DNA of 37,584 nt, from the NCBI GenBank assembly GCA_024277855.1, contig JAJRUJ010000035.1, positions 1 to 37,584 of the forward strand. Reading direction: 5' to 3'. The notes under the pieces are model-generated. The model searched no databases. It was not told the origin of the DNA and saw only the letters and a program-made list of their open reading frames with translations. The stretch comes from Candidatus Zixiibacteriota bacterium. Its GTDB lineage: Bacteria; Zixibacteria; MSB-5A5; WJJR01; JAJRUJ01. Shown piece after piece: positions 8,165 to 31,192 of this stretch. The translations under genes and the position numbers were made by a program. Position 1 is the first letter of the stretch. Each line of letters begins with the position of its first letter.

Positions 8165-9520
8165 ATGGTTAACCCCCACAAAGATGACAGGTTCTTCAAG
8201 GTTATCCTCAGTTCAATCGCCGACGGCGTGTTCACGGTTGACAGCGACCGGGTGATTACCAGTTTCAATCCGGCGGCCGAAAAAATTACCGGCGTACCGG
8301 CTTCGAAAGCCATCGGTAAACGCTGCTATGAAATTTTCCATGCCGATGTTTGCGAGGAGGGCTGTCTGCTCGAAAAGACTCTGCAAACCGCGAGGGAGTC
8401 AATTGATCAGCCGGTCAACATCACCAATGCCGCTGGAGAGAAAATCCCGATCAGCATTTCGACGGCCGTCCTGCGCGACGATGACGGCAATGTGCTGGGG
8501 GCGGTGGAGACATTTCGTGATCTTTCCGCCCTTGAACATCTGCGTAAAGAGCTATATAAGAATTATTCATTTGAAGATATTATCTCCAAAAGCCCGCTGA
8601 TGCACAAATTATTCGCGATCATGCCCGATGTTGCTGAAAGTGAGAGTACGGTCTTAATCCAGGGGCCATCGGGGTCGGGCAAAGAACTTTTCGCGCGCGC
8701 GATACATAACCTCAGTCCTCGCCGCGCCAACAAATATGTCGTGGTCAATTGCGGTACCTTGCCGACACAGTTATTCGAGTCGGAAATATTCGGCTACGTC
8801 AAAGGCGCTTTCACCGATGCCCGACGCGACAAACAAGGCAAAATTGCCGTTGCCGAGGGAGGAACGGTTTTTTTGGATGAAATCGGCGAACTGCCGATGT
8901 CCACGCAGGTCAAGTTTCTCCGGTTGTTGCAGCAACACGAATATGAACCGCTGGGTTCGACCGAGTGCCGCCGGGCCGATATTCGCATAGTTGCCGCAAC
9001 TAACCGCAACCTCCAGGAATTGATTGCGGCCGGGAAATTCCGGGACGATCTCTATTTTCGGCTGGCCGTCGTGAAATTTCAACTGCCGACGTTGCGGGAA
9101 CGTCGAGAAGATATTCCGTATCTGGTGGACCACTTTATCAAAAAGAACAACGCCAGACGGGGCAAAAATGTCATTTCGGTCAGCCCCGAAGTGATGAGTA
9201 TTCTCCTGCGGCAGGGATTTCCCGGCAATGTCCGTGAATTGGAGAACATCATCGAATATTGCTTCGTTGTTTGTCGTGGCAGTATTATCCAAAAAGACCA
9301 TCTGCCTTCCGAACTTCTTTCCGGAGAGCCGGCCGGCTCGCCGCCGGTCAACGGGCAATCACCGGTAGCCCTGGCCATCGATGAGGAAGAACGAATCAGG
9401 TCGGCATTGTCGCGGGCCGGGGGTAATCAAACCAAAGCGGCGGCCGAGTTGCGAATCAATCGCACTACTCTCTGGCGGAAAATGAAATCCTATGGTATCT
9501 GCCGCAAGGATACCAGCTGA
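8165..9520 (+). CDS. PAS-domain sigma54-dependent transcriptional activator
   Basis: A 451-residue bacterial enhancer-binding protein with PAS (about 8-120), AAA+ (about 140-370) and a Fis-type HTH at the C-terminus ('GGNQTKAAAELRINRTTLWRKM'-type helix pair). The AAA+ core has Walker A GPSGSGKE (167-174), the sigma54-contact loop GAFTDA (214-219; the common form is GAFTGA), and Walker B 'GGTVFLDEIGE'. There is no receiver domain, so the input is the PAS domain, which carries C54, C63 and C67 in the pattern CYEIF...C...C, suggesting a redox or metal-cluster signal. The next gene downstream has repeated half-sites and a -24/-12 promoter, so it is the obvious target. Transcribed from its own predicted sigma70 promoter. 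Confidence 0.95.
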   Translation: MVNPHKDDRFFKVILSSIADGVFTVDSDRVITSFNPAAEKITGVPASKAIGKRCYEIFHADVCEEGCLLEKTLQTARESIDQPVNITNAAGEKIPISISTAVLRDDDGNVLGAVETFRDLSALEHLRKELYKNYSFEDIISKSPLMHKLFAIMPDVAESESTVLIQGPSGSGKELFARAIHNLSPRRANKYVVVNCGTLPTQLFESEIFGYVKGAFTDARRDKQGKIAVAEGGTVFLDEIGELPMSTQVKFLRLLQQHEYEPLGSTECRRADIRIVAATNRNLQELIAAGKFRDDLYFRLAVVKFQLPTLRERREDIPYLVDHFIKKNNARRGKNVISVSPEVMSILLRQGFPGNVRELENIIEYCFVVCRGSIIQKDHLPSELLSGEPAGSPPVNGQSPVALAIDEEERIRSALSRAGGNQTKAAAELRINRTTLWRKMKSYGICRKDTS

Positions 9521-9556
9521 TTTTCTCGTTCGACTTTCCTTCCAAGTTCCGCTGCA

Positions 9557-9609
9557 TGCAACAATTCAAATCGTTGCACTGCAACACCAATGATGCAACA
9601 CTTGCAACA
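9557..9609 (+). promoter_or_regulatory. Upstream activator sites: repeated TGCAACA / GTTGCA half-sites
   Basis: TGCAACA occurs at 9557-9563, 9580-9586, 9594-9600 and 9603-9609. An inverted GTTGCA at 9573-9578 gives TGCAAC-N10-GTTGCA (9557-9578) and the near-perfect palindrome GTTGCACTGCAAC (9573-9585). A further TGTTGCA lies at 9659-9665. The array sits about 70-115 bases upstream of the -24 element, the usual place for enhancer sites of sigma54 activators. The activator encoded just upstream is the likely binder; this is inference. Confidence 0.65.
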
Positions 9610-9670
9610 ATGATATCTGTCAAAAGCTCTATCTTGTTGTTTTACAATGTCATAAATATGTTGCATCTAT

Positions 9671-9685
9671 CGGCACTCTTCTTGC
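9671..9685 (+). promoter_or_regulatory. Sigma54 (-24/-12) promoter of the redox operon
   Basis: The sequence CGGCACTCTTCTTGC matches the TGGCAC-N5-TTGC consensus except at the first base. The invariant GG (9672-9673) and GC (9684-9685) are exactly ten bases apart. Transcription would begin near 9697, just ahead of the ribosome site TTGGAG (9698-9703) and ATG 9710. Confidence 0.75.
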
Positions 9686-9709
9686 CACTGCTCAGCATTG
9701 GAGTAGAGT

Positions 9710-10477
9710 ATGATTGTTGCATTGCCGAAATTTAACGACATTGTCGCCCCCTCATTTGAAGTGGCTCGTTATTTCGTGATCGTCACCATCGATGGGGGAA
9801 AAGAACTCGCGCGCGAAACCGTTCAATGTGCTGGGTGTAAGGGATTCGCGCGAGTTGCCCTTGTCCGTGACAGTCGGGCTAATGTGTTGGTTTGTAACGG
9901 GATTAAGGAGTTTTACCGCAACCTGATCGAGTCTTCCGGCATATCGATCTATGCCAATGTCAGTGGTACGATTGATGAAGCCATCGATGATTATCTTGCC
10001 CAGCGCCTGCATCCGGACTCATTGGTTGTGAACGAGCCGGAAACCGGAGACTCTGCGGCGCTTGGGGATCTCATCTGTTGGACTACCGAATTATTTACCG
10101 CAAAAGGATATGCCGTCCGTCCCGGCGCTGATCGTGCCCCGTTTCCGGTCGATCTGATCGCCGAAATCGAATGTCCTCTCTGCCACAAACCGGTACGGGT
10201 GGCGATCTGCTGTGGCGCGCATGCTTACCGCAGCGATCAGGAGATCAAGCGGTTGCATCAGGTTGCCTGCGCCGATTATCATGCGCAGGTTTATATCCAC
10301 TCCTCAACCACAATGGCGGTCAATTGCTGCGCCGAGTATGGCATTGAACTAATCGACCCGCATGCGGTGGTCACCGAAGACATCCGATCCATGACAAACC
10401 ACATCCCACTCCTCAAACAGACAATCGTGGGGCATGAACAAGCATCGGGAAATGTGGATCTCATCGACCGGCCGTAA
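9710..10477 (+). CDS. NifX/NafY-like dinitrogenase cofactor-domain protein with C-terminal cysteine region
   Basis: A 255-residue soluble protein. Residues 1 to about 100 resemble the dinitrogenase iron-molybdenum cofactor domain: 'ALPKFNDIVAPSFEVARYF', 'CAGCKGFARVAL' and a 'NVSGTIDEAIDDYL' helix. The remainder is less familiar and has 'CPLCHKPVRVAICCGAH' and later 'NCCAEYGIELIDPH', which could hold a metal or cluster. No nitrogenase genes are visible. Relatives of this domain outside nitrogen fixation occur beside anaerobic redox operons and are thought to carry metal clusters. It is the first gene after the sigma54 promoter and is followed by the Hmc-like complex, so a role in assembly or sensing for that complex is plausible but inferred. 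Confidence 0.75.
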   Translation: MIVALPKFNDIVAPSFEVARYFVIVTIDGGKELARETVQCAGCKGFARVALVRDSRANVLVCNGIKEFYRNLIESSGISIYANVSGTIDEAIDDYLAQRLHPDSLVVNEPETGDSAALGDLICWTTELFTAKGYAVRPGADRAPFPVDLIAEIECPLCHKPVRVAICCGAHAYRSDQEIKRLHQVACADYHAQVYIHSSTTMAVNCCAEYGIELIDPHAVVTEDIRSMTNHIPLLKQTIVGHEQASGNVDLIDRP

Positions 10478-10508
10478 GGCAAAGACCGGCAAATATCCCA
10501 TTGGAGAT

Positions 10509-11966
10509 ATGATGAAATTGACGCCACTCACTGCTGAAGAAAAAAACAGAGCTTTTGCGCCGACGAAAAAGCCGGAGGTCATTGAAAAACAACGGCTCGC
10601 TGTCCGTTATCATATTGAGGATTTCCCGGTTGACGACCGACCCCGGCGATTTCTCAATGCCTTTGCCGCGATCCTGCGCCATTCGAATTATCGTTTTGCT
10701 CTCGATCATTTTGTTCGAATAAGCGCCAAATGTTCGCGTTGCGCGACCAGTTGTCAAGTCTACCTGGCCACCGGTGATCCGGAAGATATTCCCTGTAAGC
10801 GGTCGGAGTTATTACTCAGTGTCTACCGTCGCCATTTTACCCTCGGCGGCTCGGTGCGGGGACGGTTATTTGATCGCGGTCACCTCACCGATGCCATGAT
10901 CCAAAAGATGGCTGATTCCTTCTGGAACTGTACTGCCTGCCGGCGTTGCACGATGGAGTGTCCGTCGGGTATTGACCATGCGCTGATTACCCATCTTGGC
11001 CGCTATATCCTCAGCGAAATCGGCATCGCCCCCCGGGCGCTGGTGATCAGTACCCGGGAGCAACTCGAGGGCGCCACCGGGAATACCTCGGCGATCCCCT
11101 TACCCGCCCTGGTCGATACGCTCGAATTCCTCGAAGAGGATATGAAAGAAGAAAAAGGGATCGATATTCTCTTTCCTCGCGATGTCGAAAATGCCGATTG
11201 GGTATTTTTTCCCGCAGTCAGTGATTTTTTAATGGAGGCCGAAACGCTGATGGGGGTTGCCGCGGTGTTTGCCGCCACCGGCGATTCGTGGACCATCGGC
11301 ACGGGATATTTCGACGGAATCAACTATGGCCTGTTTTACAGCGACCGCATCCTTGAGCGGGTCGTCAAAAAAGTCGACGCGGAAACCCGTCGTCTCAAAG
11401 GCAAAAATGTTCTGATCGGGGAGTGTGGGCATGCTTCGCGGTCGGCCAAATATTTCCTCCCCACCCACTGTGGCGGCGATAAAGCTCTCCCGGTCGTCAA
11501 TATTATGGAATATACCCATCAGGCCTGGAAAGAGGGCCGGCTCAAACTCAAAGCCAATACGATCAAACGACGGGTGACCTATCACGATCCCTGTAACATC
11601 GCCCGTCAGCGCTGGATTACCGAACAACCGCGCGAGTTATTGAAAGCAATCTGTGTGGACTTCGTCGAGATGACGCCGAATCGTGACGAGAATATTTGTT
11701 GCGGTGGTGGCGGGGGAACAGTCTCAATCGATGAAATCCGCCCTTACCGTACAGCCGTCGGCGGCCGGGCCAAGGCCGAACAAATCAGGGCGACGGGGGC
11801 GAAGTACGTCGTTGCCCCCTGCGCCAATTGCAAGAAACAATTAAAAGAACTGCTGGAAGACCAGAAAATTGATTGTGAGGTGATCGGTTTACACGATCTG
11901 CTTTATCGCGCCATCGAATTCGATGCGCCGCCAACGTCCGCCGAGGAACCGCAAAAGGAGGAATAG
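10509..11966 (+). CDS. HdrD/DsrK/HmcF-like CCG-domain iron-sulfur protein
   Basis: Cytoplasmic iron-sulfur subunit of a membrane redox complex. Two N-terminal [4Fe-4S] motifs are seen, 'CSRCATSCQVY' and 'CTACRRCTMECPSG'. The C-terminal part has a cysteine-rich CCG domain: 'YHDPCNIAR', 'NICCGGGGGT' and 'APCANCKKQL', the ligand set of the catalytic cluster of HdrB/HdrD, DsrK and TmcB. An earlier 'GECGHASRSAK' is a partial second set. At about 485 residues it fits HmcF/TmcB/DsrK. The start is ATG 10509 or 10512 with GGAG at 10503-10506; an ATG at 10434 would overlap the upstream gene by 44 bases. Context with a NarI-like b cytochrome matches DsrMK and HmcEF. The cytoplasmic substrate, perhaps a disulfide, is unknown. 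Confidence 0.9.
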   Translation: MMKLTPLTAEEKNRAFAPTKKPEVIEKQRLAVRYHIEDFPVDDRPRRFLNAFAAILRHSNYRFALDHFVRISAKCSRCATSCQVYLATGDPEDIPCKRSELLLSVYRRHFTLGGSVRGRLFDRGHLTDAMIQKMADSFWNCTACRRCTMECPSGIDHALITHLGRYILSEIGIAPRALVISTREQLEGATGNTSAIPLPALVDTLEFLEEDMKEEKGIDILFPRDVENADWVFFPAVSDFLMEAETLMGVAAVFAATGDSWTIGTGYFDGINYGLFYSDRILERVVKKVDAETRRLKGKNVLIGECGHASRSAKYFLPTHCGGDKALPVVNIMEYTHQAWKEGRLKLKANTIKRRVTYHDPCNIARQRWITEQPRELLKAICVDFVEMTPNRDENICCGGGGGTVSIDEIRPYRTAVGGRAKAEQIRATGAKYVVAPCANCKKQLKELLEDQKIDCEVIGLHDLLYRAIEFDAPPTSAEEPQKEE

Positions 11967-11970
11967 CGCT

Positions 11971-12675
11971 TTGAAGATCCTGCTGGAATTCGCCCGTGGA
12001 CCGCTTTTTCGACTAACCTTTGCCGTAATGGTTCTCGGACTGGCCCGGATATTAATCCTCGACATCTGGGGAATGATCGAGGCCTACCGGCGCGCGGGAG
12101 ACAAAAATATACCCTGGAAACTGACGATGATCCGCACCGTCGAGTGGTTGTTCCCGGTCAAGCGAGTAATGCACCATCGGCCGCTCTACAGTCTCACCGG
12201 GATTCTCTTCCATATCGGTTTGCTCACCGTGCCTCTTTTCCTGTTCGCCCATGTGCAGCTTTGGCGGAGTGGGATCGGCTTCGGCTGGTTTACACTGCCC
12301 CGGCTGTGGGCCGACATCCTGACGATCATGACCATCGTCATGGGGGCGGGCCTTTTTTTCGGACGATTGGGGCACAGCAAATCGCGCGTGATCAGCCGCA
12401 AGCAGGATTATCTCTGGCCGCTTTTGTTGATCATTCCCTTTGTCACCGGCTTTATCTGTGCTAATCTCGGAGTTGCGCCGAAGTTTTATCACTTGGTGCT
12501 GTTGACTCATATCCTCTCGGCCGAATTGATTTTTGTTTTGCTGCCCTTTACCAAAATTGCCCATTGCGTACTGATGCCGTTGTCACAAATAGTGATGACG
12601 CTGGCCTGGAAATTTCCCGCCAAAGTCGACGAGGACATTTGTGTGACCTTGAATAAGAAAGGGGCGCCGGTATGA
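11971..12675 (+). CDS. NarI/DsrM/HmcE-like membrane cytochrome b subunit
   Basis: A 234-residue membrane protein with about five hydrophobic segments, resembling the nitrate reductase gamma family (NarI, DsrM, HmcE). Histidines suited to b-haem lie in 'FHIGLLTVPLFLFAH' and in 'FYHLVLLTHILSAE'. It would exchange electrons between menaquinone and the adjacent CCG iron-sulfur protein. The start is a TTG at 11971, chosen because GGAGG (11957-11961) sits nine bases upstream; the frame is open to 11923 but that overlaps the preceding gene without a ribosome site. Its stop overlaps the next start in an ATGA arrangement, implying translational coupling. Confidence 0.85.
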   Translation: MKILLEFARGPLFRLTFAVMVLGLARILILDIWGMIEAYRRAGDKNIPWKLTMIRTVEWLFPVKRVMHHRPLYSLTGILFHIGLLTVPLFLFAHVQLWRSGIGFGWFTLPRLWADILTIMTIVMGAGLFFGRLGHSKSRVISRKQDYLWPLLLIIPFVTGFICANLGVAPKFYHLVLLTHILSAELIFVLLPFTKIAHCVLMPLSQIVMTLAWKFPAKVDEDICVTLNKKGAPV

Positions 12676-13427
12676 GTATTGCCATTCTCACCGACGTGAC
12701 CAAGTGTATTGGTTGTGCCGAATGCGTGGTCGCCTGTAAGCAGGTGCATGGCCTGGACAAAGACCTGCCTCGGGTTTGGCAGAAAAACGACGGTCTTTCG
12801 GCCTGTTCATGGACTTCGGTTATCCAGCGTCCGGGGAATCACTATATCCGCAAGCAGTGTCGTCATTGTCTCGAACCGGCCTGCGCCGCGTCCTGCCCGG
12901 TCGGGGCGTTGCATACAACTAAATCCGGCGCGGTGATCTATGACGATCAGAAATGTCTCGGCTGCCGCTATTGTATGACGGCCTGTCCGTATGGGATCCC
13001 GCGATATGATTGGGATCGACGCGTGCCGTATGTGCGTAAGTGCATCCTCTGTTTTGAGCGGTTGGAAAGAGGGCTGCAACCGGCCTGTACCACGGCCTGC
13101 CCGACCGGTGCAACCATTTTCGGCGAGCGGGCTGAGTTGATTGCCGAAGGACACCGTCGCATCAAGGCCGAACCGGAGAAGTACCTCAATCGTGTCTGGG
13201 GTGAGCACGAAGTCGGGGGAACTTCGGTTCTCTATGTTTCGGACATCGACCTTGACTTTATGGCCTACAAACCGGGGCTGGATATCGCCCTGCCCACTAC
13301 GACCAAAAAAGCAATGGAAAGTGTTCCGCCCGCATTTCTGGGTATGGGGGCGACAATGCTTGGACTTAACTGGATTATCAAGCGCCGACAGAAACTACAG
13401 GGTCAATCTGAGGATAAAGAGGACTAA
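12672..13427 (+). CDS. Four-cluster [4Fe-4S] ferredoxin subunit (HmcB/DsrO/NrfC-like)
   Basis: A 251-residue electron-transfer subunit with four cysteine sets: 'CIGCAECVVACKQ', 'CRHCLEPACAASCPVG', 'CLGCRYCMTACPYG' and 'CILCFERLERGLQPACTTACPTGA'-type, the arrangement of NrfC, PsrB, DsrO and HmcB. The first cluster begins only a dozen residues from the start, so there is no Tat or Sec signal; a hydrophobic 'FLGMGATMLGLNWII' near the C-terminus followed by basic residues may anchor it. This suggests a cytoplasmic face, unlike DsrO and HybA, which have Tat signals. It partners with the downstream NrfD-type quinone subunit. Start ATG 12672 overlaps the upstream stop. Confidence 0.88.
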   Translation: MSIAILTDVTKCIGCAECVVACKQVHGLDKDLPRVWQKNDGLSACSWTSVIQRPGNHYIRKQCRHCLEPACAASCPVGALHTTKSGAVIYDDQKCLGCRYCMTACPYGIPRYDWDRRVPYVRKCILCFERLERGLQPACTTACPTGATIFGERAELIAEGHRRIKAEPEKYLNRVWGEHEVGGTSVLYVSDIDLDFMAYKPGLDIALPTTTKKAMESVPPAFLGMGATMLGLNWIIKRRQKLQGQSEDKED

Positions 13428-13430
13428 TCG

Positions 13431-15305
13431 ATGAATCGGGTACATGTCACCAAGACGATACTCTGGATGTTGACCGGCCTGGCCCTGGCGGTTGCGCTGA
13501 CGCGGTTTGCCTTCGGCCTGGGCGTGACGACCAACTTAACCGATACGACTCCCTGGGGCTTGTGGATCGGTTTCGATGTGATGGCCGGCGTCGCCCTCGG
13601 CGCCGGGGGGTTTGTGATCACCGCGATTTTCTATATCCTGCGCCAGGAAAAATTCCATCCTTTGGTTCGACCGGCGGTCCTGACCGCATTGCTCGGCTAC
13701 ATCGCGGTTATCCTCTCGCTGTTGGTCGATCTGGGGCTGCCCTGGAATATCTGGCACATGATGATCTATTGGAATCCGCACTCACCGCTATTTGAAGTTG
13801 GTTGGTGTGTCATGCTCTATACAACCGTCCTCCTGCTTGAATTTTCGCCCGTGCCGTTGGCCGAAACCAGCCGCTGGGCGAATATCCGACGGGTGTTGAT
13901 GAAGTTCCGGTTCCCGTTGGTGTTGTTGGGGATTATGCTTTCGACTTTGCATCAGTCCTCCCTGGGATCGTTGTTTTTAATTACGCCGTTCAAATCATAC
14001 CCGTTGTGGTATACGCCCCTGTTGCCGATTTTATTTTTCATCTCGGCAATCGCGCTGGGGTTGATGATGGTCTCCTTCGAAAGTCTTTGCACCTCCTGGC
14101 TCTACCGTCGTCCGGCGGAGAATAATCTCGTCGCCCGGCTGGGTTCGGCGGCCCGCTGGGTGCTTGGGTTCTATTTGCTGGTGCGTTTGCTCGACCTGAA
14201 AATAAGCGGGAACCTGGCGCTGATTTTTTCCGGCAACTGGGAAAGTTGGCTGTTTATCGCTGAGTTGCTGATCATGGCAATCATCCCGATTATCCTGTTT
14301 TCGATTCCCCGCGTGCGGCATTCGGCCACCGGGCAATGGATCGGCTCGTTTCTTGTCGTGGCGGGGACGATTCTTAATCGGGTCAATGTTGGTGGGCTGA
14401 CCATGGTCGGGACAACCGGCGAATACTACTTCCCTTCCTGGATGGAGGTCAGCATCAGCGCCGGAATTGTCGCTGCCCTTGCCCTGGTGTTTCTCTTTGC
14501 GATTGAGAAATTCCAAATTTGGGAAACACGGCCCCGGGAACCGGAAAGCGACCCGCATGTTCAACCCGCCTTCAGCCGGGGCGGACAAACATGGCTGGGC
14601 AGCCCGTCGGTGGCGGGCCGCACCAGGTACTCACTGGCTTTTATCATCGCCGTGGCAATCGGTTTTGCCCTGATTCCCGCACATAAAATCGACAGTTCCG
14701 GGGTTGTCGATATTGTGGCGGCGCGAGCGCTTGGAGGTGACACGCTTTTTGTGGACGGCAATCGTGACGGTTTCGGTGTTGCCTTTCCCCATGCCGCGCA
14801 TATTAAGGCCGGGAAGGGTAAAGAATCCTGTGTGGGTTGCCACCATATGAACTTGCCGCTCGACCGGCAATCGGGGTGTTATTCCTGCCATCGAGGCATG
14901 TACCTGACTGCCGATGCCTTCGGCCATGATTGGCACGCATCCGCCGCCGGAGGAAATGTCGCCTGCGTCGATTGCCATACCAGAGGTGAGGACCGCACGG
15001 CGGCGACTGCTCGTCCCTGCGCGGACTGCCACAAGGACCTGATGCCGGAGGGGGCCGCGATCAAGGTCAACACCTATACCGTGCCCTCATATGCCGATGC
15101 GATGCATGATTTGTGTATCCCCTGTCACCGACAGGCCGCGGCAACAAACTCCGACCATCCGGACCTCTATCGCTGCCCCACCTGTCACAACGGGAAATCG
15201 CCGGACTGGCCGACTCTGGCCGGTCGTCAACCATGGAAACGACGATTGAACAACCACAACATTCTACCGGTCGTAAGCGCCGGTATCGAGGGGCCGACAC
15301 CGTGA
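13431..15305 (+). CDS. NrfD/HmcC-like quinone-interacting membrane protein fused to a six-haem cytochrome c domain
   Basis: A 624-residue fusion. Residues 1 to about 365 are a polytopic NrfD/PsrC/HmcC-like domain with roughly ten hydrophobic segments and family landmarks such as 'PWGLWIGFDVMAGVALGAGG' and 'HQSSLGSLF'. A further membrane segment (about 400-415) leads to a periplasmic C-domain with six CxxCH sites: CVGCH (467), CYSCH (483), CVDCH (512), CADCH (530), CIPCH (562) and CPTCH (582). 'HAAHIKAGKGKESCVGCHH' is class III cytochrome c style with extra histidines for bis-His ligation. In Hmc and Dsr complexes the cytochrome and the NrfD subunit are separate proteins; here they are joined. 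It would link periplasmic cytochromes with the quinone pool. Three bases separate it from the ferredoxin gene. Confidence 0.9.
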   Translation: MNRVHVTKTILWMLTGLALAVALTRFAFGLGVTTNLTDTTPWGLWIGFDVMAGVALGAGGFVITAIFYILRQEKFHPLVRPAVLTALLGYIAVILSLLVDLGLPWNIWHMMIYWNPHSPLFEVGWCVMLYTTVLLLEFSPVPLAETSRWANIRRVLMKFRFPLVLLGIMLSTLHQSSLGSLFLITPFKSYPLWYTPLLPILFFISAIALGLMMVSFESLCTSWLYRRPAENNLVARLGSAARWVLGFYLLVRLLDLKISGNLALIFSGNWESWLFIAELLIMAIIPIILFSIPRVRHSATGQWIGSFLVVAGTILNRVNVGGLTMVGTTGEYYFPSWMEVSISAGIVAALALVFLFAIEKFQIWETRPREPESDPHVQPAFSRGGQTWLGSPSVAGRTRYSLAFIIAVAIGFALIPAHKIDSSGVVDIVAARALGGDTLFVDGNRDGFGVAFPHAAHIKAGKGKESCVGCHHMNLPLDRQSGCYSCHRGMYLTADAFGHDWHASAAGGNVACVDCHTRGEDRTAATARPCADCHKDLMPEGAAIKVNTYTVPSYADAMHDLCIPCHRQAAATNSDHPDLYRCPTCHNGKSPDWPTLAGRQPWKRRLNNHNILPVVSAGIEGPTP

Positions 15306-15730
15306 TGAAAGCGAAAATATTAATTGTCGATGATGAACCGGATGTCAGTTTATACCTGACAACCATCCTCAAACAGGCCGGGTATGCTCCGACGGCCGTG
15401 GCCACGGTCAAGGCCGGCCTGGCGGCAATGGCGGAAGACATCCCGGCACTGGTTTGTCTCGATATCATGATCCCCAAGGAGTCGGGGATTTCGCTTTACC
15501 GACAGATGAAAGCCGATCCTCGACTGGCGAAGGTTCCGGTTTTGATCGTCAGCGGAGTTGTCCCGTCGTCCGATTCCGATTTCAACACCCTGATTGCCGA
15601 GTGGGATGTTCCCCCGCCGGACGATTATCTGGAAAAACCGATCAAAGTGGACGAATTTTTGGCGCGGGTGAAAGCGCTCCTGTCACGCCGAGTATCCGCC
15701 AGACCGCTGAGGAACAAATCCCATGGCTAA
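15305..15730 (+). CDS. Receiver-only response regulator
   Basis: A 141-residue CheY-like receiver with no output domain. The acidic pair is in 'ILIVDDEPDV', the likely phospho-acceptor in 'LVCLDIMIP', a conserved Ser/Thr in 'VLIVSG', and the lysine in 'YLEKPIKVDEF'. A loop insertion around 'VPSSDSDFNTLIAEWDVPPPDD' lies between the fourth and fifth strands. ATG 15305 shares its A with the TGA of the upstream cytochrome gene (TGATG), and the gene overlaps the next by eight bases, so it belongs to the redox operon. In Desulfovibrio a response-regulator gene (rrf1) also follows the hmc genes. It may act as a phosphate sink or bind a partner protein. Confidence 0.9.
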   Translation: MKAKILIVDDEPDVSLYLTTILKQAGYAPTAVATVKAGLAAMAEDIPALVCLDIMIPKESGISLYRQMKADPRLAKVPVLIVSGVVPSSDSDFNTLIAEWDVPPPDDYLEKPIKVDEFLARVKALLSRRVSARPLRNKSHG

Positions 15731-17210
15731 AGAGGAACCGGCCGGAGATCAACTCGCCCAACCATGGAGCCGGTCGGCGTTGTTGGAGCAGATGCCGTTC
15801 AACGTCGCAATCATCGGCCGCGATTACGACATTGCGCAGGCCAACACGCTCTTTGCCGAACATTTCGGCGAATGGCAGGGGAAAAAATGTTATCAAGTAT
15901 ACAAAAAACGCAATGAACCGTGCCCCAACTGCAATACAATGGCGACATTCGTCGACGGTCTGGTGCGGGTGACCGATGAGGTCGGGGTCGATCAACATGG
16001 CCGGACGGCACATTATGTCGTCCATTCGGCCCCGTTGCGTAATAGCCCGGACGGGCCGATCGAATATGTCCTGGAAATGTCATCAGATGTCACCGAGACC
16101 AAGCGCTGGCAGCAGGAATACCAAATTCTCTTCGACCGCGTGCCCTGTTATATTACCGTGATCGACGAGGATTTTCGGATCATCCGTGCCAACGAGGCCT
16201 TCCGCGAGCGGTTTGGCGATGCCCAGGGTGAACGCTGTTACGAGATTTATAAAAAACGGAAACGGAAATGCAATAACTGCCCGGCCCGAAAGACATTTAA
16301 AGACGGCAAGCTGCACAAGTCCAATCAAACGGGAATCAGCAGTTCCGGCGAAAAGACCAGTTATATCGTTACGACCTCGCCGTTGACCCGGGGAGAGGAA
16401 AAAGTCGCCCACGTGATCGAGATCTCTACCGATATCACCGAGACACGCAAACTTCAGCAGGAAATGATCGATGCCGAACGACTGGCGGCGGTCGGCCAGA
16501 CCGTGGCCGGTCTGGCCCACAGTGTAAAAAATATCCTGATGGGTGTTGAGGGAGGCAAGTACATTGTCAGTCTCGGTCTGGAAAAAAATGACCGGGAGAT
16601 GATTACCCAGGGCTGGGAAATGCTGAGCCGGAACATCGATAAGACGACCGCCCTGGTAAAAAACTTCCTCAGTTTTGCCAAGGGTCGCCTGCCCTTGGTG
16701 CGCCTGGTTGACCCGAATGCGGTGGCACTGGAAATTGTCGATTTATATCGTGAAGTTGCGCGAGCTTCCGGGATCAGCCTCCGGGCGGAACTCGAGCCGA
16801 ACATCAAAGTCGCGCCGCTTGATCCCGATGGGATCCACACCTGCCTGACCAACCTCGTCTCCAATTCGATCGATGCCTGTGAGATGAGTAAAAAAGATAA
16901 CCGATTCGTGGTCCTTCGCACAAAAAACGAGAAAGGCGCGCTGATTTTTGAGGTGGCCGACAATGGCGAAGGGATGGATTACGAGATAAAACGCAAGATT
17001 TTTACCACATTTTTTACGACCAAGGGTGGAGAGGGGACCGGGTTGGGCTTGTTGACCACGCGCAAAATCGTTCAGGAGCACGGCGGCAAGATCATTGTCC
17101 GCTCGAAGAAAACAGAGGGTTCCCGGTTTCGCATTGTGCTGCCACGAAAACGTCTGGCCGACCTGTTGGCCGAGAGTAAGGCGCGAGCCGAGAAGACAAA
17201 AACCGAATAG
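15723..17210 (+). CDS. Cytosolic double-PAS sensor histidine kinase
   Basis: A 495-residue kinase with two PAS domains (about 20-125 and 135-245) and a C-terminal HisKA/HATPase core. The phospho-acceptor is H266 in 'GLAHSVKN'; the N box is 'LTNLVSNSIDACE', G1 'DNGEGM' and G2 'GTGLGL'. No membrane segment is apparent, so it senses an internal signal. Both PAS domains share the cysteine layout CY-x-[VI]-Y-K-K-R...C-x2-C (C56/C67/C70 and C172/C183/C186), fitting a redox or metal-cluster sensor. Receiver genes lie on both sides and overlap or nearly touch it, so at least one is its partner. The operon contains no DNA-binding response regulator. Confidence 0.93.
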   Translation: MAKEEPAGDQLAQPWSRSALLEQMPFNVAIIGRDYDIAQANTLFAEHFGEWQGKKCYQVYKKRNEPCPNCNTMATFVDGLVRVTDEVGVDQHGRTAHYVVHSAPLRNSPDGPIEYVLEMSSDVTETKRWQQEYQILFDRVPCYITVIDEDFRIIRANEAFRERFGDAQGERCYEIYKKRKRKCNNCPARKTFKDGKLHKSNQTGISSSGEKTSYIVTTSPLTRGEEKVAHVIEISTDITETRKLQQEMIDAERLAAVGQTVAGLAHSVKNILMGVEGGKYIVSLGLEKNDREMITQGWEMLSRNIDKTTALVKNFLSFAKGRLPLVRLVDPNAVALEIVDLYREVARASGISLRAELEPNIKVAPLDPDGIHTCLTNLVSNSIDACEMSKKDNRFVVLRTKNEKGALIFEVADNGEGMDYEIKRKIFTTFFTTKGGEGTGLGLLTTRKIVQEHGGKIIVRSKKTEGSRFRIVLPRKRLADLLAESKARAEKTKTE

Positions 17211-17219
17211 GAGATTACG

Positions 17220-17735
17220 ATGGTCGAATCATTGCATAAGACCGTCCTGGTTGTCGATGACGAGGAAGACGTGCGCCAATTCCTGGTCGCCGCCCTGACC
17301 GAGGCCGGTTTTGACGTCGTGACCGCCGCTGATGGCTATGAGGCGTTGGCGAAGGTGAAAGAACAGCCACCCGATTTGATCTCGCTCGACCTGGTAATGC
17401 CCAAGCGGTCGGGTGTTCGCTTTTTCCGCGATATCAACAAGAATAAAAAATGGGCAAAAATCCCGATTATCATCGTTACGGGTCATGCCCGGGATGACCT
17501 GGGTAAGTCCGACTTGAAGGAGTTGACAATGTCCGGCCCCGGGATTTACCTGGAAAAGCCGGTCAAGCCGCATAACTACATTGCGGCCGTCAAAAAGACG
17601 CTTGGGCTGGAGACCACGACCGAGGAAGCCGAAGCGGCTGACAAAGTAAAATTGCAAAATGAATTGAAGAACTTAGTCGACGAAATCGATCTCGATAAGT
17701 TGAAAAAACTGAAATCGATGATGGACGACGATTAG
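17220..17735 (+). CDS. Receiver-domain response regulator with acidic C-terminal tail
   Basis: A 171-residue protein. Residues 1-125 form a CheY-like receiver: 'VLVVDDEEDV', 'LISLDLVMPKRSG', 'IIIVTGHA' and 'YLEKPVKPHNY'. The last 45 residues are charged and helical ('LKNLVDEIDLDKLKKLKSMM' then DDD) with no DNA-binding motif, perhaps a protein-protein or coiled-coil tail. ATG 17220 follows TAGGAG, nine bases after the kinase stop. It is the last gene of the operon; a hairpin lies 32 bases downstream. Likely phosphorylated by the adjacent PAS kinase. Confidence 0.9.
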   Translation: MVESLHKTVLVVDDEEDVRQFLVAALTEAGFDVVTAADGYEALAKVKEQPPDLISLDLVMPKRSGVRFFRDINKNKKWAKIPIIIVTGHARDDLGKSDLKELTMSGPGIYLEKPVKPHNYIAAVKKTLGLETTTEEAEAADKVKLQNELKNLVDEIDLDKLKKLKSMMDDD

Positions 17736-29859: not shown

Positions 29860-29956
29860 TGCACAGACGACACGTAAATGTTATGCTGGACATTGGCGGA
29901 CAATCAGGATGATCAGGCGCGACCGGAACAAGAGAGTTTTTCTGGAGGAGGAGAAT

Positions 29957-31192
29957 ATGAGTGAGTTGATTGATAACGCGAAAGCAAGACGAGGCGTGCT
30001 GAAACATTTGATTTTACAATTGCACGAGGGAAAGGCCGCAGAGGAAGTAAAATCCCAGTTACTTAAATTACTTGGCCGCGTGCCATACAACGAGGTGGTC
30101 GAGGTCGAACAGGAATTGATCGCGGAGGGTCTGCCGGCTGGAGAGATCCTGAAACTGTGCGACCTGCACTCAGCAGCGATGAAAGGTGCGCTGGATTTAT
30201 CCGAGGGGAAAACCGCCCCGCCGGGACATCCGGTACACACGTTCAAAAAAGAAAATGAGGCCCTGCTCGGTGAGTTGGCCCTGGCCGATAAACTTCTTGC
30301 TGAGATAAACGATAGTCCGGATGAGGACGACGTCGCTGAAGCGCTCGGGCAATTGCGCCTCCGTTTCAGCCGTCTGGCCGATATTGAAAAACACTATAGC
30401 CGGAAAGAAAACCTGTTGTTCCCCTATCTTGAAAAAAAAGGTATCACCGGCCCGCCGACGGTGATGTGGGGCAAGGATGATGAAGTCAGAGAACTGCTCA
30501 AGGGAGTCATCAAGACTCTCGAAGCTGCCGGCCAGATAACTGCAGGGGAGGCCGGAGGCCTTGAGCAATTGGTATTCCGGCCGGCCATCGATGCGATTAA
30601 GGAGATGATTTTTAAGGAAGAAGAAATCCTCTTCCCGATGTGTTTGGACAAGCTTACCGATGATGAATGGTATGCGATCAAGGTCCAAAGCCCCGAAATT
30701 GGCTTCTGCCTTTTTGACCCGACCGACGATTGGAAACCCGATCAACTGACCGAAATTGCACCGGAATCGGTTGAGGAAAATCGGGTGCGGTTCCCCAGCG
30801 GCAGCCTCTCTCCCAAAGAACTGGAAGCTATCCTCAACACGATCCCGTTTGACTTGACCTTTGTCGGGGCCGATGACACGGTGAAGTATTTTACCCAGGG
30901 TCGCGAACGAATTTTCGATCGTAACCGGGCAATTATTGGACGGAAAGTCCAAATGTGTCATCCGCCGTCCAGTGTACATATTGTCGAGAAAATTCTGGAT
31001 GATTTCAAGAGTGGTCGAACGAGCCAGGCCCCCTTCTGGATCACGCTTGGCGGCAAGTTCATTCATATAGAGTATTTCGCCGTCCGGGATGAAAAAGGCA
31101 GCTACCTCGGCACTCTCGAAGTCAGCCAGAATTTGACCGAAAAACGGGCATTGAACGGAGAGCAGCGACTCCTGTCGTACACCGAGAAGTAA
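29957..31192 (+). CDS. DUF438-hemerythrin-PAS protein, probable nitrosative/oxidative stress or O2/NO sensor
   Basis: A 411-residue cytoplasmic protein. The N-terminus (about 1-70) is DUF438-like ('HLILQLHEGKAAEEVKSQL'). The middle (about 85-235) is a hemerythrin-like helical bundle with candidate iron ligands in 'GHPVHTFKKENEAL', 'DIEKHYSRKENLLFPYLE' and 'FKEEEILFPM'. The C-terminus (about 285-400) is a PAS domain with 'VQMCHPPSSVHIVEKIL' and 'FWITLGGKFIHIEYFAVRD', as in the PAS_10 group. ATG 29957 is chosen for the strong GGAGGAGG just upstream; an ATG at 29909 lacks one. Related genes belong to DNR/FNR-controlled nitric oxide responses in several phyla. It is followed after six bases by a DUF1858-DUF2249 gene. 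Confidence 0.88.
   Translation: MSELIDNAKARRGVLKHLILQLHEGKAAEEVKSQLLKLLGRVPYNEVVEVEQELIAEGLPAGEILKLCDLHSAAMKGALDLSEGKTAPPGHPVHTFKKENEALLGELALADKLLAEINDSPDEDDVAEALGQLRLRFSRLADIEKHYSRKENLLFPYLEKKGITGPPTVMWGKDDEVRELLKGVIKTLEAAGQITAGEAGGLEQLVFRPAIDAIKEMIFKEEEILFPMCLDKLTDDEWYAIKVQSPEIGFCLFDPTDDWKPDQLTEIAPESVEENRVRFPSGSLSPKELEAILNTIPFDLTFVGADDTVKYFTQGRERIFDRNRAIIGRKVQMCHPPSSVHIVEKILDDFKSGRTSQAPFWITLGGKFIHIEYFAVRDEKGSYLGTLEVSQNLTEKRALNGEQRLLSYTEK

Follow-up and report, generated by a model that had tools for sequence, protein, structure and literature searches.

The window analysed here, a 37,584-nucleotide stretch of a Candidatus Zixiibacteriota genome, holds a regulator gene (8165-9520, + strand; 451 amino acids) separated by a gap of about 190 bp (9521-9709) from a five-gene redox operon on the same strand (9710-15305). 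Gene 1 of the operon (9710-10477) encodes a protein with a Nitro_FeMo-Co (NifX/ORP) N-terminus and a restriction-endonuclease-like domain carrying CxxC-type and CC motifs. The products of the remaining genes were assigned from Pfam and NCBIfam matches: a CCG/4Fe-4S protein resembling DsrK, TmcB and HmcF (gene 2, 10434-11966), an HmcE/TmcC-like membrane protein (gene 3, 11923-12675; NCBIfam), an HmcB-like ferredoxin (gene 4, 12672-13427) and an HmcC-like NrfD joined in one chain to a class III cytochrome c (gene 5, 13431-15305). An earlier note on this DNA had called the target complex Hmc-like. The best matches are indeed the curated NCBIfam models HmcB, HmcC, HmcE and DsrK, gene 2 being closer to DsrK than to HmcF, yet every score lies below the family cut-off. 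We therefore describe the complex as Hmc/Dsr-like, not as Hmc.

Downstream on the same strand are a response-regulator receiver (15305-15730), whose start overlaps the gene 5 stop, a PAS histidine kinase (15723-17210) and a second receiver protein (17220-17735); all three are retained in many relatives, the latter two as part of a conserved gene run. The histidine kinase contains two PAS_4 stretches, and a related kinase at locus L032, possibly a second redox sensor, has cysteine-rich PAS motifs such as CYKVYKNLNYPCLGC. Elsewhere in the window (29909-31192) is a protein with DUF438, hemerythrin and PAS_10 matches, a possible oxygen or NO sensor.

The protein encoded upstream of the operon is a PAS-AAA-Fis activator, as had been proposed: its translation matches the Pfam families PAS, Sigma54_activat (4e-64) and HTH_8 (6e-12). 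The combination of an AAA+ domain with a GAFTGA-type loop and a Fis-type helix-turn-helix (HTH) fits the sigma54 enhancer-binding proteins, and the genome carries one sigma54 gene (rpoN). The sigma54-contacting loop reads GAFTDA, which is among the variants listed as keeping transcription-activating ability (PMC4641369). The recognition helix of the HTH is NRTTLWRK. Within the PAS domain, Cys54, Cys63 and Cys67 are invariant, and C-x8-C-x2/3-C occurs in all activators whose PAS domain is complete on the contig, a motif compatible with the holding of an iron-sulfur cluster. The structure model of the activator was of low confidence (pLDDT 71) and was set aside.

The gap contains the four direct TGCAACA copies described earlier, starting at 9557, 9580, 9594 and 9603 (TGCAAC half-sites at 9557-9562, 9580-9585, 9594-9599 and 9603-9608, + strand), as well as the inverted copies, GTTGCA at 9573-9578 and 9660-9665 (- strand). 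These are followed by a predicted sigma54 promoter, CGGCAC-N5-TTGC (CGGCACTCTTCTTGC, 9671-9685, + strand), in which GG (9672-9673) and GC (9684-9685) show the exact N10 spacing reported before. Transcription would be expected to start near 9697. With GG-N10-GC, sites about 80-150 bp before the start and rpoN in the genome, the arrangement has the features of a sigma54 promoter with an upstream enhancer. Also present are a weak sigma70-like match (9682-9709) and a hairpin (9493-9515).

Six TGCAAC/GTTGCA half-sites stand in the gap, compared with 0.42 expected from dinucleotide shuffles; at least six were found in none of 20,000 such shuffles, in which the maximum was four. A pair of TGCAACA copies 5-40 bp apart is unique to the array in the 3.07-Mb genome, and no adjoining sigma54 site was found for the other half-site pairs of the source genome, which fits the proposal of a self-contained regulator-target pair. 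The longer patterns TGCAACA-N5-15-TGTTGCA and TGTTGCA-N0-4-TGCAACA gave zero matches, this locus included, and the motif letters had no match in the literature searched.

To compare relatives, genomes were scanned with gene 2, which gave 80 loci. The addition of loci from further relatives produced 33 non-duplicate loci with a same-strand upstream activator orthologous or related to that of the window. Regulator-only contexts are under-sampled because the loci were retrieved via gene 2. The run of activator, gene 1, gene 2, genes 3-5 and kinase/receivers recurs in Zixibacteria, Ignavibacteriota, Calditrichota, LCP-89, Electryoneota and further lineages. In the 33 activator-linked gaps there are 139 half-sites, where 11.3 +/- 3.5 would be expected from shuffles that, like the shift null described below, leave aside the kinship of the loci, several of which are closely related. 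At least two half-sites occur in 30 of these gaps. Absence of the motif upstream of orthologous operons had been named as grounds for rejecting the idea; 31 of the 33 loci have half-sites no more than 450 bp into the gap, and at a 32nd (L053), where a gene is inserted, the array adjoins the promoter of the operon beyond that gene. Across 38 operon copies with no activator of this kind, the corresponding 500 bp contain 21 half-sites in total, and 27 copies have none. An unbiased enrichment of all 6-mers placed CGTTGC, GTTGCA and GCAACA at the top, with the -24 word TGGCAC in the top ten. Half-site order and number differ among species, and identity between loci outside the half-sites is 29.5%, compared with 26% by chance. 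As the surrounding sequence is nearly random, the array and promoter have been kept by selection. The pattern GCAAC-N58-74-GGCAY-N6-TGC, searched over 133 genomes, is too loose, occurring about as often as its reversed control.

Promoters in the relatives were picked by sigma54 score alone, blind to half-sites, and the null was obtained by sliding the promoter at random; distances run from the GCAAC or GTTGC core to the first base of the promoter (9671 here). Of the 30 loci, 21 have a GCAAC core at 67-72 bp upstream of the promoter (null 4.3), 21 have one at 111-117 bp (null 5.1), and 15 have a GTTGC core at 79-84 bp (null 3.4). Spacing between promoter and start codon varies far more (29-296 bp). 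GG is present in 30/30 promoters and GC in 28-30/30, figures partly selected for, the sites having been chosen by score. Judged from these spacings, the distance between array and promoter is a fixed geometry. The 70-bp geometry is absent in L084 and L109, and L076 lacks a clear promoter.

The window fills four of the five conserved slots, with cores at 113 bp (the 9557 half-site; slot 111-117), 98 bp (9573; slot 98-104), 90 bp (9580; slot 90-96) and 67 bp (9603; slot 67-72, the most conserved proximal one), and the 79-84 slot is empty. Outside the conserved slots are the half-sites at 9594 (76 bp) and 9660, the latter probably incidental or minor. The placement of the copies 60-130 bases before the promoter holds for the TGCAAC copies (67-113 bp) and fails for the GTTGC at 9660, just 11 bp upstream. 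The commonest half-site spacing is GTTGC-N7-GCAAC (that is, GTTGCA-N5-TGCAAC), a 17-bp dyad, and relatives prefer this form and TGCAAC-N7/8-GTTGCA. Because the conserved slots and the commonest dyad differ from it, TGCAAC-N10-GTTGCA, the scan motif that the earlier note had put forward, is not the general form.

Taking these patterns together, we consider it highly probable that the array serves the neighbouring activator as its upstream activating sequence and drives the sigma54 promoter of the redox operon. The Fis-type HTH of the activator would bind paired GTTGC/GCAAC half-sites, and the bound activator would assemble its AAA+ ring, reach sigma54-RNA polymerase at 9671-9685 from about 70-115 bp away and open the promoter of the ORP-HdrD-HmcE-HmcB-NrfD/cytochrome operon. 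Redox-sensing, sigma54-dependent local activation is the most likely mode of control on sequence grounds. By analogy with OrpR, the PAS domain with its three cysteines most likely responds to the redox state of the cytoplasm or to iron-sulfur/metal status.

Alternatively, a different regulator, either a repressor or a global factor, may bind the array while the neighbouring activator uses other sites. Consistent with this improbable reading, half-sites occur in a few copies of the operon that have no activator beside them (L105, L113 and L085), and related activators with different recognition helices adjoin different words. At L105, which has three half-sites, an orthologous activator was not found in the genome. 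Counter to this, L113, which has the operon, gene 1 and the array, has a 63%-identical activator gene at another place in the genome, and at L085 the activator is truncated at the contig edge. Furthermore, the half-sites follow one activator clade, and their fixed distance is to the sigma54 promoter. In a tree of 54 activators, GTTGCA arrays fall in one clade of 29 rows (support 100/99), 27 of which have arrays; the exceptions are L053, with its inserted gene, and L131, in which the activator is present and GTTGCA-type half-sites are absent. L035, on the same sister branch as L131, has two half-sites only, outside the conserved slots. Helices RNTLW, RTTLL and PTTLY, read by eye, stand beside words other than GTTGCA, compared with RTTLW beside GTTGCA; covariation of recognition helix and DNA word across activators is suggestive only.

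A second alternative, that the array serves the activator gene (through autoregulation or as its 3' end) with the operon on a housekeeping promoter, is less probable still. The array comes straight after the stop codon of the activator gene, and the sigma70-like match and the hairpin noted above could be read in this way. Against it, the GG-N10-GC element is retained in relatives, and at L053, where a methyltransferase-like gene (identified by reading the sequence only) lies between activator and operon, the array travels with the operon promoter, a half-site lying 71 bp upstream, and is not beside the activator. L053 and L113 were considered as contradicting the link between array and activator, and this objection was dropped: the array is at the promoter in L053 and an activator is encoded in trans in L113. 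That the repeats are functionless, arising by chance or from coding, is already refuted by the comparative data: the coding of gene 1 (VA codons, M-I-V-A-x-P) explains a GTTGCA just past its start codon, which we left out of the half-site counts, but the strong excess over shuffles, conservation across phyla and fixed geometry all oppose it.

The same operon is accompanied by a divergent activator, about 50% identical, in Myxococcota, Acidobacteriota and others (L110, L114, L115, L120-L123, L126, L129 and L130). A sigma54 promoter accompanied by different words (TGTCAC/TGGAACA or TGCAACACTGTAG) is present at most of these loci, and no single word common to these divergently encoded activators was found. 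In the source genome, a 53%-identical activator paralogue (L039) precedes NifX-like genes with a CGGCAC-N5-TTGC promoter, ahead of which the words are different (GGGTCGCATAATGCGACCC); of the four Nitro_FeMo-Co genes in the genome, three are near this paralogue. Paralogous activators at L045 and L047 (and L049, by sequence likeness) precede DUF2173 genes, not NifX-like genes.

Gene 1 is closely tied to the activator, being present in 24 of 26 loci with it and in 3 of 39 without (Fisher p = 2e-12). Likewise, a NifX-like gene comes after 8 of the 12 paralogous activators, three of these eight genes scoring below the Pfam cut-off. The first approximately 100 residues of the gene 1 product match NifX/ORP folds (PDB 2yx6, 1o13 and 2wfb), and the rest of the protein weakly matches REase_MTES_1575/Mrr and zinc ribbons. 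The structure model of the product (pLDDT 86) is similar to the nuclease domain of MspJI (probability up to 0.97 and E 0.026 in Foldseek), a match that we infer to cover the C-terminal part. The invariant residues are D148, C155, C158, C167, C168 and C207. As a lead rather than a result, this suggests that the C-terminus is a metal-binding, probably non-cleaving relative of the nuclease fold. No such fusion of ORP/NifX and restriction-endonuclease-like domains is named in Pfam or NCBIfam. More doubtfully, gene 1 may belong not to the membrane complex but to the activator, as its redox- or metal-responsive partner; the two would then form, with the phased array, a transferable feedback cassette in which the rigid 70-bp spacing replaces bending by IHF.

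Given that the layout recurs in several phyla, the local on-switch is very probably real, and it is of a kind already known elsewhere. For regulators tied to anaerobic redox complexes in little-cultured phyla, this family now has a DNA word and a geometry that can be tested and through which regulons could be predicted from sequence. The change of word from clade to clade constitutes a natural series for the study of how Fis-type HTHs choose DNA.

The closest parallel may be OrpR, which senses redox state via a [4Fe-4S] cluster in its PAS domain. OrpR (DVU2106) of Desulfovibrio vulgaris is a one-component sigma54 activator with a GAFTDA loop that adjoins the orp operons it controls; these encode orange-protein-type (Nitro_FeMo-Co) products and have palindromic sites upstream of sigma54 promoters (PMC3897727, PMC4641369). 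The window activator, likened to OrpR by description, also has GAFTDA and stands beside a target operon with a Nitro_FeMo-Co product, and the pairing of a one-component PAS-AAA-Fis activator with an ORP/NifX gene is of the OrpR type. Unlike OrpR, the target here is an Hmc/Dsr-like transmembrane redox complex, and the sites, instead of being palindromes at -88 and -131, form an array of several copies some 70 bp from the promoter.

A sigma54 activator beside an operon for a membrane electron-transfer complex is also seen in DVU3142, which controls ohcBAC, the sites and promoter having been predicted by comparative genomics (PMC4641369). DVU3142 differs from the window activator in being divergent, in its GAFTGA loop and in the complex controlled. 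The operon shares with Hmc, Tmc and DsrMKJOP a CCG/FeS protein, an HmcE-like membrane protein, an HmcB-like ferredoxin, NrfD and a multihaem cytochrome, and departs from them in carrying NrfD and cytochrome c3 in one protein. The NtrC-type enhancer dyad is TGCACC-N5-GGTGCA. The array resembles enhancers of this type in its cluster of dyads ahead of a sigma54 promoter and in the 17-bp length of its commonest dyad, whereas the word is different and the distance to the promoter is conserved and fixed. This fixed distance is of interest because sigma54 enhancers are usually thought to be distance-tolerant.
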